64,000 nucleotides of DNA. It comes from Turicibacter bilis. Its GTDB lineage: Bacteria; Bacillota_I; Bacilli_A; MOL361; Turicibacteraceae. A program made the position numbers and the translations under genes. Location: NCBI RefSeq assembly GCF_024499055.1, contig NZ_CP071249.1, positions 682,001-746,000 of the forward strand, in the 5' to 3' direction. Below are positions 20,086 to 25,241 of the stretch, piece after piece (position 1 is the stretch's first letter; each line of letters begins with the position of its first letter). The notes below the pieces were generated by a model. It saw nothing but the letters and a program-made list of their open reading frames with translations. It made no database searches and was not told the DNA's origin.

Positions 20086-21426
20086 GAGGGTGTAAGATAA
20101 AGTGTGTAAACTCTTAGAACAGTTACCATAATAAGTTAACTATTTCAAAGGAGTTTATTATTTATGACAAGAAAAGCTACGATGAACCAATTATTTAATC
20201 TCCTCCAAGATGAATACAACATTAAATCTGCTAGTGATATTGAAGCTGTTTTATTAGACATGTTTGGAGGCTTTATTGAACAAGCATTAGAAGCTGAATT
20301 AGATCAACATCTAGGATATAGCCGATATGATTTTCGTAATAAATCAACTTCAAATGCACGAAATGGACGTCAATCTAAAACCATTCAAACGCGTCTTGGT
20401 GAAACAACGATTCAGACTCCCAGAGATCGGCAAGGTTCATTTGAACCTCAAATCGTGCCTAAACGTCAAACCAATGTCATCGGAATTGAAGAAAAGATTC
20501 TATCGCTTTATGCTAAAGGTTTATCAACGCGTGATATTTCTAAAACATTAGCAGAGATTTATGGCTTTGAAACGTCACATGAAACGATCTCTGCTGTAAC
20601 TGATAAAGTGATTCCACTGATTCAAGATTGGCAACAACGGCCTTTAGAGCCTGTTTATCCTATCATTTATTTAGATGCGCTTCATGTCAAAGTGCGTGAT
20701 GGAATGAGTGCCTCAAACAAAGCAGTTTACTGTATCATAGGTGTGTCTTTAGATGGTCGCAAAGATGTTTTAAGCCTCTCTATCGGAGAAGCAGAAAGTG
20801 CCTCTTATTGGATGAGTTTATTAGATGAATTAAAGGCTCGTGGAGTGCAAGATATTTGTATTGCCTGTGTGGATGGTTTAAGTGGCTTTAAACAGGCCAT
20901 TCAAGCTGTTTTTCCTCATGCCCTCGTTCAACGTTGTTTAGTTCATTTAATCCGACAATCAACGAAATTTGTTTCTTATCAAGATAGAAAATCATTCTGT
21001 TATGATTTAAAACAAATCTATCAAGCGATTAATCGATCAGTAGCAGAACAAGCCTTTGAGACCTTTAAAAATAAATGGAGTCCCCTGGTACCTTTAGCCG
21101 TTAGAGTGTGGGAAAATAACATCGAAGAAGTTTATCAACTCTTTAATTTTCCTAAAGAAATTCGAAAAATGATTTATACGACAAACGCCATTGAAAGCTA
21201 CAATAGCCAATTAAGAAAAGTTCTAAAAGGAAAAGGAGCTTTTCCAAATGAAACATCGGTGATGAAATTAATCTATCTTCAAACCATGGAAGTTACTAAG
21301 AAGTGGCGACGTCAACTTTCAAATTGGAGTCAAATATTAAATCAATTATTAATCTTATACCCAGATCGTTTAACACCCTATCTATAATTTTTAAAAATTA
21401 GTTTACACACTTAACTTGACAGGCTC
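20086..21426 (+). mobile_element. Intact IS256-family insertion sequence (1341 bp)
   Basis: Bounded by 27-bp imperfect inverted repeats (20086-20112 and 21400-21426; 21 of 27 positions agree, the inner AAGTGTGTAAACT identical) and flanked by exact 9-bp target duplications. One intact transposase gene fills it. Its target appears to be debris of a degraded gene. Confidence 0.95.
20164..21387 (+). CDS. IS256-family (mutator-type) transposase
   Basis: A 407-residue DDE transposase. The N-terminal region carries EAELDQHLGYSRYD and the SNARNGRQSKTI motif typical of the family. The catalytic acids lie in IYLDALHVKVRDG (first Asp), CVDGLSGF (second Asp) and NAIESYNSQLRK (Glu). The DGRKDVL motif is present. 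The ATG follows AAAGGAG. The frame is full length and undamaged, so the element may be mobile. Confidence 0.96.
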   Translation: MTRKATMNQLFNLLQDEYNIKSASDIEAVLLDMFGGFIEQALEAELDQHLGYSRYDFRNKSTSNARNGRQSKTIQTRLGETTIQTPRDRQGSFEPQIVPKRQTNVIGIEEKILSLYAKGLSTRDISKTLAEIYGFETSHETISAVTDKVIPLIQDWQQRPLEPVYPIIYLDALHVKVRDGMSASNKAVYCIIGVSLDGRKDVLSLSIGEAESASYWMSLLDELKARGVQDICIACVDGLSGFKQAIQAVFPHALVQRCLVHLIRQSTKFVSYQDRKSFCYDLKQIYQAINRSVAEQAFETFKNKWSPLVPLAVRVWENNIEEVYQLFNFPKEIRKMIYTTNAIESYNSQLRKVLKGKGAFPNETSVMKLIYLQTMEVTKKWRRQLSNWSQILNQLLILYPDRLTPYL

Positions 21427-21600: not shown

Positions 21601-23253
21601 TTATTCATTGATTAATAAAAACTTTTTTAAATCTTCATCAACACTTGAGATACCACCAATTTCGAATGTTTCAACTAAGAAGTTGACGATATTTGGTGAT
21701 AAGAATGCAGGTAATGTTGGCCCTAAGTGAATTTTTTTCACACCAAGTGATAATAACGCTAATAAAACAATCACTGCCTTTTGTTCATACCAAGCGATAT
21801 TATAAACAATCGGTAAGTCATTAATATCTTCAAGTCCAAACGCTTCTTTTAATTTTAAGGCAATGACAGCTAATGAATATGAATCATTACATTGCCCTGC
21901 ATCTAAAACACGTGGAATTCCATTGATATCTCCTAATTCTAATTTATTATAGCGATATTTGGCACATCCAGCCGTTAAAATCACAGAGTCATTCGGTAAT
22001 GCTTGGGCAAAATCTGTATAGTATTGACGCTCTTTATGACGTCCATCACATCCTGCCATTACGACAAAGTGTTTAATCGCCCCACCTTTTACTGCTTCAA
22101 TAATTGAATCTGCTAAACTTAAGACTTGATGATGAGCAAATCCACCCACTAATTGTCCCGCTTCAATCGCTGTTGGAGCTACACATTGTTTAGCTTGCTC
22201 AATCACAGCTGTGAAATCTTTTGTTCCATCTTCTAATACAGGAATCACTTTAAATCCTGGATATCCTGTATTTCCTGTTGTATACACACGATCCATATAA
22301 GTTGAATTAGAACGTGGTGGCACTAAACAGTTCGTTGTAAATACAATTGGTCCATTAAATGTTTCAAATTCTTTCATTTGTAAATGCCAAGCATTCCCAT
22401 AGTTTCCTTTTAAATGCTCATACTTTTTAAGTTCAGGATAATAATGAGCTGGTAACATTTCACTATGTGTATAAATATCGATTCCTTGATCTTTTGTTTG
22501 TTCAAGTAATTGTTTTAAATCGTGTAAATCATGTCCTGTGATTAAAATTCCTGGACGTGTCCCTACTCCAATATTGACAGTTGAAATTTCTGGATTTCCA
22601 AATGTCGTTGTATTAGCTTCGTCTAATAATGCCATCGCCTGAACTCCAACTTCACCAAGTGCTAATGTCATTGGAACATATTGCTCAAGTGTTAATTCAT
22701 CATTTACTAATGAAGCCATAAATTCATGGGCTGCACTAAATAAAGCTTCATTTTTATAGTTTAATTTTTCAGCATGCGATAAGTAAGCAGCTAATCCCTT
22801 TAATCCGAATAACATTAACTCACGAATCGAACGAATATCTTCATCTGCTGTTTGATGAATTGCTAAATGAAGTGCTTTGTGAATCATTTCTTCTTTTGTT
22901 TTCACGTCTAGTTCATAGATAGCTGCTGATGGTAAGACGATTCCTTTCTGTTGAAGTAATGCTTTATATTGTTCACGATAATTGATACTTGCTTGAATAC
23001 GTGAGACAAATTCTTCTTCATCAAAGTTTGCATTTGTAATCGTTGCAAATAATCCTTCAATCACAAATAAATCAATTTCTTCAGTATTAATTTCTAATTT
23101 TTTGGCTTCCACCGCAAGTGATGATAATCCAATTAACGAGTAAATAAATGTATCCATTAAGGCACTTAATTCTGGTGATTTCCCACAAACACCAAAGACC
23201 GTACATCCGATCCCTTTTGCCGCTTCTTGACATTGATTACAGTTCATTTCCAT
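21601..23253 (-). CDS. hcp: Hydroxylamine reductase / hybrid-cluster protein
   Basis: An oxygen-sensitive cytoplasmic Fe-S enzyme that handles nitric oxide or hydroxylamine in anaerobes. The N-terminal cubane ligands are cysteines 5, 8, 17 and 23 ([13 protein letters not shown] spacing, the class I pattern). Hybrid-cluster ligands follow in [31 protein letters not shown] and [11 protein letters not shown] start at the ATG at 23251-23253, six bases after GAGGTG; a GTG three codons earlier overlaps that site. Length (550) is normal. It lies just downstream of a Crp/Fnr-family regulator but has its own promoter with a well-placed operator. Confidence 0.96.
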
Positions 23254-23285
23254 AACTCTCACCTCTTAATCTAAATGACTGCTTC

Positions 23286-23329
23286 ATTATAACGCCAGCT
23301 TTTTTAAAAAGATGTGAGGTACATCACAT
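23286..23329 (-). promoter_or_regulatory. hcp promoter with CRP/FNR-type operator at -41.5
   Basis: On the minus strand TATAAT occupies 23286-23291, giving a predicted start near 23279. A perfect ATGTGA-N6-TCACAT palindrome lies at 23312-23329, centred at 23320.5, which is -41.5. That is the class II activator position, and it covers the -35 region, which is otherwise poor. The regulator encoded just upstream is the obvious ligand. Confidence 0.75.
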
Positions 23330-23341
23330 TCAGGGAAAAAA

Positions 23342-23373
23342 TAAAAAAAAGTAGTTCGAATTTTCGAACTACT
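23342..23373 (-). terminator. Terminator overlapping the Crp/Fnr-gene stop codon
   Basis: AGTAGTTCGAA (23350-23360) pairs with TTCGAACTACT (23363-23373), followed on the minus strand by eight T bases. The TAG stop codon lies in the stem. Confidence 0.85.
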
Positions 23374-24034
23374 CTTCACCACTTAACCATTGACGATTGA
23401 TTTTAAAGGTTTTCCCCTTGACTTCACATAATCCCTCTTCTTTTAGTTCCCCTAACAGGCGACTAAATGTTTCTCTGCGAATACTGAGTAAATCAGCAAT
23501 CTCTTGTTTAGTTACAGGAATTTTTACAAAGACATCGTCTGAAGAAGACATATGGGCAGTAGCAAAACGTTGTAACCATTTTCTAAATCGCTCTTTCGCA
23601 TCAATGAATACTTGGTCCGTTAATAATTGTTGAACCCCTTCTAATCGACGATTGAGTTGTTTAAACCATTCTCGCGTTGCTAATTCAGTCGATAAAATCC
23701 CCGCTTCTAACGCCTCACGTGGAACTTTAACCACAATCGTTTCTTCAACAGCCATGGCTGTAGCAGGATAACGGTGAGGAGGATTAAATAACGTACTTAA
23801 GGCAACAAACTGCCCACCTTGATATAGAGAAAAGATTTTTTCTTGTCCCATCGATGACGTCTTTAATATTTTTAATGTTCCTTCACGAACAAAATAAATC
23901 GAATGTGCGATCTCTTCTTGTCGAAATAAAGTTTCACCCTTTTTTAAAGTTATCGCTTGGGATACTCGCTCTAACTGTTGTAAATTGGTTGGATGAATAT
24001 AGGCGAGTAAAGAATGTTGCTTCAGTTTTATCAC
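23369..24034 (-). CDS. Crp/Fnr-family transcriptional regulator (HcpR-like)
   Basis: A 221-residue protein with an N-terminal cyclic-nucleotide-type sensor barrel (LFRQEEIAHSIYFVREGTL at about 37-55) and a C-terminal winged helix (KQEIADLLSIRRETFSRLLGEL at about 175-196). It lacks the N-terminal cysteine cluster of FNR, so it would not bind Fe-S in the FNR manner. Position before hcp and the TGTGA-N6-TCACA site suggest an HcpR or NnrR-like nitrosative-stress regulator; this is inference. The start is unclear: a GTG at 24032-24034 overlaps AGAGGTG, and a CTG three codons later is an alternative. Its start lies four bases past the stop codon of the oxidoreductase gene. Confidence 0.88.
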   Translation of the reverse strand: MIKLKQHSLLAYIHPTNLQQLERVSQAITLKKGETLFRQEEIAHSIYFVREGTLKILKTSSMGQEKIFSLYQGGQFVALSTLFNPPHRYPATAMAVEETIVVKVPREALEAGILSTELATREWFKQLNRRLEGVQQLLTDQVFIDAKERFRKWLQRFATAHMSSSDDVFVKIPVTKQEIADLLSIRRETFSRLLGELKEEGLCEVKGKTFKINRQWLSGEE

Positions 24035-24037
24035 CTC

Positions 24038-25042
24038 TTAATCAATTTCCTTTAAATCAGCTGGATAGACGAGCCCAATTTGAGAGCGAACTTCATCTAA
24101 TACTCGCATGACTTCATACGAAAATTTAAATGAATTCACTGCTGATTCATGTTTTTGATTTAAAATGAGCTGAATAAATTCTTCGGCTTCATAAACCATA
24201 TTGTGCTCCACTTGGGGTAATGTTATTTCTTCCACTTCACCATTTCGATAATGAATCGTAACCTGATCCATTTGGTTAATTCGATCAATGATAATACTTC
24301 CCTCTTCACCTTGGATTTCGGCTGGAAGAGATGAGTTTGAAATTTTGGAGTACATAACAGTCCCTTGCATTTGTGGATATTCAAAAATTACTGACCCTTC
24401 TCCATCAACACCAGATTCTAACAGATGAGCACTTGCTTTAATCGCTAAAGGAGCGCCAAATAACGCAATCATAGGAGCAATAGTATACACACCGATATCG
24501 ACTAATGCACCATTCGATAACTCAGGATTGAAGGCATTTAAAACTGTTCCAGCGCGATAGGCATCATAGCGTGATGAATACTGACAAAAGCTTGCAAAGT
24601 AACGGCGCACGGTTCCAATCTTAGACAACTGTTCTTGAATCACTTTAAAGTTTGGCAGTAACGTTGTCTTCATCGCTTCCATCAACAAAACATGATTTGC
24701 TTTTGCAGCTGCAATCATAGCTTCAACCTCTTTTAAGTTTGATGCTAATGGCTTTTCACACAATACATGCTTTTGATAATTTAAACACATAATCGCTTGC
24801 TTCGCATGTAAGGCATTAGGAGACGCAATATACATGGCATCGACTACATCACTTCTTAAAAGCTCTTCAAGATCTGTGAATATATGTTTCACCCCATATT
24901 TGGCAGCGAACGCTTGACCACTTGCTTCTGTACGTGAATAAACGGCACTTAATTCAAAGGCTTCACAATGAGATGCTGCTTGAATAAATTGATCGGTAAT
25001 AATGTTAGTTCCAATAATTCCAAATCTAACTTTTTGTTTCAT
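24038..25042 (-). CDS. Gfo/Idh/MocA-family NAD(P)-dependent oxidoreductase
   Basis: A 334-residue sugar or cyclitol dehydrogenase-type enzyme. The Rossmann loop GIIGTN is at about residues 7-12. The conserved LCEKPLASN motif follows at about 93-101. The C-terminal substrate domain includes GALVDIGVYTI with the conserved aspartate. The substrate cannot be told. I start at the ATG at 25040-25042 after GGAGGAAATAAGT; five upstream codons are not needed. It is immediately followed by the Crp/Fnr gene with a four-base gap, so the two may be co-translated. Confidence 0.88.
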   Translation of the reverse strand: MKQKVRFGIIGTNIITDQFIQAASHCEAFELSAVYSRTEASGQAFAAKYGVKHIFTDLEELLRSDVVDAMYIASPNALHAKQAIMCLNYQKHVLCEKPLASNLKEVEAMIAAAKANHVLLMEAMKTTLLPNFKVIQEQLSKIGTVRRYFASFCQYSSRYDAYRAGTVLNAFNPELSNGALVDIGVYTIAPMIALFGAPLAIKASAHLLESGVDGEGSVIFEYPQMQGTVMYSKISNSSLPAEIQGEEGSIIIDRINQMDQVTIHYRNGEVEEITLPQVEHNMVYEAEEFIQLILNQKHESAVNSFKFSYEVMRVLDEVRSQIGLVYPADLKEID

Positions 25043-25203
25043 ACTTATTTCCTCCACCTCTTCCTCATCTCTATCTATAACCTATATTGATTACATCAGA
25101 CTTAAAATCATAAAACACCCTAATAAAGACTGACTATAGAGGCAGTAAAATCTTTTTATGATGTACAAAAATCACGGCTTCTTACTTATTTAGCATAAAA
25201 AAT

Positions 25204-25241
25204 AAAAGTCCCTCTGTCAAGTTGTTTGACAGGAGGGACTT
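25204..25241 (-). terminator. Terminator after brnQ
   Basis: AAAGTCCCTC and GAGGGACTTT close an extended stem that continues through TGTCAA/TTGACA. Confidence 0.8.

Follow-up and report, generated by a model that had tools for sequence, protein, structure and literature searches.

The window, that is, the entire 64-kb stretch of DNA that was analysed (35 % G+C), carries on its minus strand a gene for a hybrid cluster protein, preceded by a Crp/Fnr-family gene and an oxidoreductase gene. The features of this locus are as follows:

21601-23253, minus strand: hcp, encoding hybrid cluster protein (hydroxylamine reductase) of 550 aa; the best start is the ATG at 23253, and the mechanical ORF starts at GTG 23262
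23279, minus strand: predicted hcp transcript start, derived from the position of the -10 element
23286-23291, minus strand: TATAAT, the hcp -10 element; it follows the operator after 20 nt, a gap that is conserved
23309-23314, minus strand: CATCTT at the -35 hexamer position of hcp, 0/6 matches to TTGACA, overlapped by the operator
23312-23329, no strand assigned: Crp/Fnr-type operator ATGTGA-N6-TCACAT, with perfect 6+6 arms, centred at -41.5
23346-23377, minus strand: intrinsic terminator with a 14-pair stem, 3′ of the regulator gene, splitting the regulator transcript from hcp
23369-24034, minus strand: Crp/Fnr-family regulator of 221 aa, with recognition helix SIRRETFSRLL and no FNR cysteine cluster
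24038-25057, minus strand: gene for a Gfo/Idh/MocA oxidoreductase, 3 nt before the start of the regulator gene
25192-25220, minus strand: candidate promoter of the oxidoreductase-regulator operon, TTGACA-17-TATGCT, with no TGTGA-type site there

The hcp product scores 556.9 bits against the Prismane family and 806.6 bits against the hydroxylamine reductase equivalog, and the regulator contains PF00027 (cNMP-binding; 70.6 bits) and PF13545 (Crp-type HTH; 49.2 bits) domains, placing it within the Crp/Fnr superfamily. Due to the terminator that lies between these two genes, hcp should have a promoter of its own. The palindrome was also considered as a terminator and rejected, as that of the regulator is formed by the separate 14-pair stem. 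The oxidoreductase and regulator genes probably constitute a single operon, although their linkage is not preserved in relatives of Haloplasma. Autoregulation was likewise rejected, since the best sites ahead of the oxidoreductase gene and of the regulator gene, at 6-7 of 10, are not convincing. Just downstream of hcp is a gene for an IS256-type (mutator family) transposase (window 20164-21387), which was not seen at that spot in the congeners G001 and G004.

Read along the minus strand, the hcp promoter consists of ATGTGATGTACCTCACAT, 20 nt, TATAAT, 6 nt, the predicted +1 at 23279 and the ATG at 23253, with AGAGGTG as the ribosome site. Matches to TTGACA in the -35 hexamers number 1/6, 0/6 and 1/6 at spacings of 16, 17 and 18 nt from the -10 element, respectively. 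The sequence-only reading had described a perfect ATGTGA-N6-TCACAT palindrome, whose centre precedes the TATAAT-derived start by 41.5 bases and which is accompanied by a poor -35 region, and each of these elements holds: a site at -41.5 with a poor -35, relative to a predicted start, is the arrangement of class II Crp/Fnr promoters. With no mismatches, the palindrome has a single match in the 64-kb window and none in 100 window shuffles, whilst at two mismatches the six matches within the window are at the level of chance (4.65 expected). Across the 2.79-Mb genome, TGTGA-N6-TCACA occurs three times, with the two examples besides the hcp site falling within coding ORFs, and the complete layout (palindrome, 20-nt gap, TANNNT; 0 mismatches) is found at hcp only. 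As relaxed palindrome counts are close to control levels in both window and genome, mismatched sites were not taken as a regulon without cross-species conservation.

Such conservation is apparent for the hcp site. In G001 and G004 the order oxidoreductase-regulator-operator-hcp is preserved, with an identical 20-nt gap and TATAAT, and among the congeners the operator stays at the same place even though the flanks have diverged. The arrangement regulator-operator-hcp is preserved within the genus, in three species, and beyond it in two Haloplasma-related genomes, G064 and G072, which belong to a second family that also includes Haloplasma G047; the promoters of this pair read ATTTGATATATATCACAT-20-TACAAT and ATGTGATGTAAATCACAT-20-TAATAT. 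The sequence-only reading had suggested searching for the same palindrome before hcp in related genomes, and it is indeed present, with 26 of 95 hcp upstream regions harbouring TGTGA-N6-TCACA with at most one mismatch (per-region shuffles: mean 0.95, maximum 4). In fourteen of these 26 promoters, a -10 element scoring 5/6 or more sits exactly 20 nt from the site, compared to no more than two at every other spacing; they span several Bacillota families (e.g. Caldanaerobacter L075, Caloramator L084, Epulonipiscium L118), but are not 14 independent events, as related species were counted apart. Retention of the exact gap across many hcp promoters supports the class II activator geometry proposed from the window alone. 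For the GTAAC-type sites of HcpR2 promoters, the distance from centre to -10 peaks at the same value as for TGTGA sites. In some TGTGA cases, among them Desulfosporosinus and relatives, where the site lies at ~-120 relative to the start codon, a good -10 was not seen at that spacing. In G003 the orthologue of the window regulator resides away from hcp, at another place (L023, L123), and the hcp site is degenerate (TTTGA half); hcp in this genome adjoins an Fnr-like regulator with N-terminal cysteines (L023, L123). Haloplasma G047 has the hcp operator, and the clade of the window regulator was not found among the Crp/Fnr proteins examined.

With regard to DNA reading, all seven of the seven orthologues of the window regulator carry R180, E181 and R185 (CRP numbering), of which R180 and E181 have been tied to G3 and A6 of the half-site by Rodionov and colleagues (PMC1274295). 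Across the hcp loci, helix type and site type go together, R/P with GTAAC and R/E with TGTGA; L031 and L033 have an R/S helix, yet possess TGTGA-type sites. In a tree of 46 proteins, with CRP, FNR, DNR, Crp2 and HcpR2 for comparison, the window regulator and six orthologues form a clade at 100/99, and a 29-row clade of HcpR2 and Porphyromonas gingivalis HcpR is split from the side of the window regulator, also at 100/99. The references in this analysis included E. coli CRP and FNR, and those for DNR and HcpR were fragments from printed alignments; several reference branches are long, and the tree gives the window-regulator clade no firm place among CRP, FNR, DNR and Crp2. Membership of HcpR2 was rejected on the basis of the tree split and the helix residues (R180/E181 with a TGTGA operator).

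Several described systems nevertheless resemble the locus. Desulfovibrio HcpR (HcpR1; PMC545781, PMC1274295) has an adjacent Crp/Fnr gene, wTGTGAnnnnnnTCACAw before hcp and an R180-type helix, a likeness of features, whilst there is no ferredoxin gene frdX beside hcp in the window. HcpR2 of Clostridia, Bacteroidetes and Thermotoga, the type to which both the heme/NO sensor HcpR of P. gingivalis (PMC12750200) and hcpR of Clostridioides difficile (PMC12915319) belong, similarly targets hcp, frequently from an adjacent regulator gene, and its operator is centred at the same position relative to the -10; however, it uses an R180/P181 helix on GTAAC-n4-GTTAC, whereas the window protein has R180/E181, a TGTGA site and no Met68. 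The crp2 gene beside hcp in Thermoanaerobacter tengcongensis (PMC1274295; Caldanaerobacter L075 herein) offers a CRP-like site, a 20-nt gap, TATCAT, R180/E181 and an adjacent regulator, but this regulator, described as an orthologue of Bacillus subtilis Fnr, comes from another Crp/Fnr lineage with a long branch.

The residues by which known members of the superfamily sense their signals are largely missing from the regulator. In alignment there is no counterpart of the FNR cluster cysteines (Cys20/23/29/122), the single cysteine being Cys203, in agreement with the earlier description of a Crp/Fnr protein without this cluster upstream of hcp. The positions of the CRP cAMP pocket (E72, R82, S83, T127 and S128) are occupied by Leu, Tyr, Pro, Val and Gln, respectively. 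By sequence, the best match among solved structures is Pseudomonas DNR (E 3.8e-21), an NO-responsive protein with which the regulator has FRQxExAH, GQEKI and ETFSR in common; they differ in that DNR has P180, compared to R180 here, and His187, which we take to be the DNR heme ligand and which is Leu in the regulator. His7, kept in six of seven orthologues, aligns with DNR His14 and is the sole DNR counterpart histidine, serving as a lead only. Met68, the heme ligand of P. gingivalis HcpR (PMC12750200), aligns with a Lys. Ferrochelatase was found in 0/8 genomes of the group versus 8/14 control genomes, and cytochrome bd subunit I is absent in five genomes; these organisms could scavenge heme. 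Judged by residue content, sensing by the regulator is neither via an FNR Fe-S cluster nor via cAMP in the CRP pocket, and is probably not by HcpR2- or DNR-style heme. The previous label of an HcpR/NnrR-like NO sensor is accordingly unsupported, as the protein lies outside the HcpR2 clade, lacks both heme ligands and comes from genomes in which ferrochelatase was not found; it is best treated as hypothetical, because it was drawn from the target gene and not from the protein.

The best model for this locus, to which we assign a probability of roughly 0.75, is class II activation of hcp by the neighbouring Crp/Fnr protein, which would bind the -41.5 site upon a signal. The hcp promoter would thus carry an activator site in place of a -35 element; some signal would switch on a dimer of the 23369-24034 protein, and this dimer would bind ATGTGA-N6-TCACAT and recruit RNA polymerase as a class II activator. 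In this way hcp, which serves in protection against NO/hydroxylamine-type stress, would be made only on need. The site, its spacing, the poor -35, the separate terminator, the conservation and the synteny are read directly from sequence; we infer both the activating role of the neighbour and that the signal would be nitrosative or related redox stress.

That the palindrome is a functionless product of chance would fit the background frequency of two-mismatch matches, but is scarcely credible for a perfect palindrome never matched in shuffled sequence, which remains in place between diverged flanks in congeners and recurs before hcp far above the shuffled level. Repression is a more serious proposition, albeit an improbable one: the operator overlaps the -35 position, and so a bound protein could block polymerase until a signal relieves the block. 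With 0-1 of 6 matches, however, the -35 is so poor that repression would be superfluous, and a 20-nt gap kept exactly across taxa is the signature of class II contact. Furthermore, in C. difficile (PMC12915319) and P. gingivalis (PMC12750200), where HcpR was put to the test in later work, hcp expression is dependent upon it.

Somewhat more plausible than either, but still unlikely, is that the class II site is used by another Crp/Fnr paralogue, acting either by itself or against competition from the neighbour. Two more Crp/Fnr proteins are encoded in the genome, and these too have RE..SR helices and compatible DNA-reading residues. One, at genome 167657-168271, has a QRETVSR helix and adjoins asrA (sulfite reductase), the promoter of which (L007/L132; G000:C1:168336-168399) contains tandem sites of the TGTGA type that lie 21 bp apart, and one of these precedes TACAAT by the same gap; Haloplasma G047, where the operator is present and the Crp/Fnr proteins examined included no window-type regulator, is also consistent with such an actor. 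Conversely, a close orthologue of this asr-linked protein is missing in G003 and G072 (the latter 85 % complete), both of which keep hcp and its site, and in G004 its gene is frameshifted within a run of A, possibly through sequencing error. Moreover, linkage to hcp, seen for the window regulator in two families, is lacking for the paralogue. As the helices of two paralogues are compatible with the site, it is from the adjacency of the window regulator, together with the missing close orthologue of the asr-linked protein in G003 and G072, that we infer the neighbouring protein, not the paralogue, to be the binder. The sequence-only reading, in naming the neighbour as the likely regulator, is thus supported by synteny out to the Haloplasma relatives and by R180/E181/R185.

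Beyond hcp, class II activation by a Crp/Fnr protein may have a second target. One gene (G000:C1:1672259-1672507; L142, from ~1575; in relatives L134, L156, L160) encodes a Cys-rich protein of 83 aa, with CxC, CxC and CxxC motifs and no Pfam family above cut-off. A TGTGA-type site lies 20 nt before TATAAT upstream of this gene in G000, G001 and G004, with a weaker version (TAAACT) in G002, a result limited to the genus, as the upstream scan of homologues covered 3/20 loci; on the strength of this layout, the gene is a possible candidate. Separately, at L126 (G029; site at 2075) a Crp/Fnr gene with CxxC motifs is directly upstream of the next gene, with TGTGATTTGAGTCACA between them; the second of these genes is presumably DUF438/hemerythrin-like.

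The Crp/Fnr proteins found beside hcp vary by lineage: members of the Cys-less clade in Haloplasma relatives and the window genus, proteins bearing cysteines in G003 and G040, and a Crp2 in Caldanaerobacter. A tentative and rather doubtful reading is that the promoter layout is the conserved unit, read by sensor proteins that have been exchanged from lineage to lineage, and that the Cys-less clade, in genomes where ferrochelatase went undetected, might sense nitrosative or redox stress by neither Fe-S nor known heme ligation.

Judged from sequence, the hcp operator is functionally meaningful as part of a probable class II activator promoter, one that is ordinary in kind, because HcpR-type control of hcp with this TGTGA consensus was predicted in 2004 (PMC545781). 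The window locus is thus a clear and testable hcp promoter with a type of wiring already published in 2004/2005, and with it the HcpR-type control predicted for hcp now also covers a gut-type lineage of Bacilli (Turicibacter) together with its Haloplasma relatives. It is the sensing chemistry that would be new information, as a nitrosative-stress enzyme is here paired with a Cys-poor regulator that has none of the heme ligands known so far, in organisms where ferrochelatase was not detected.
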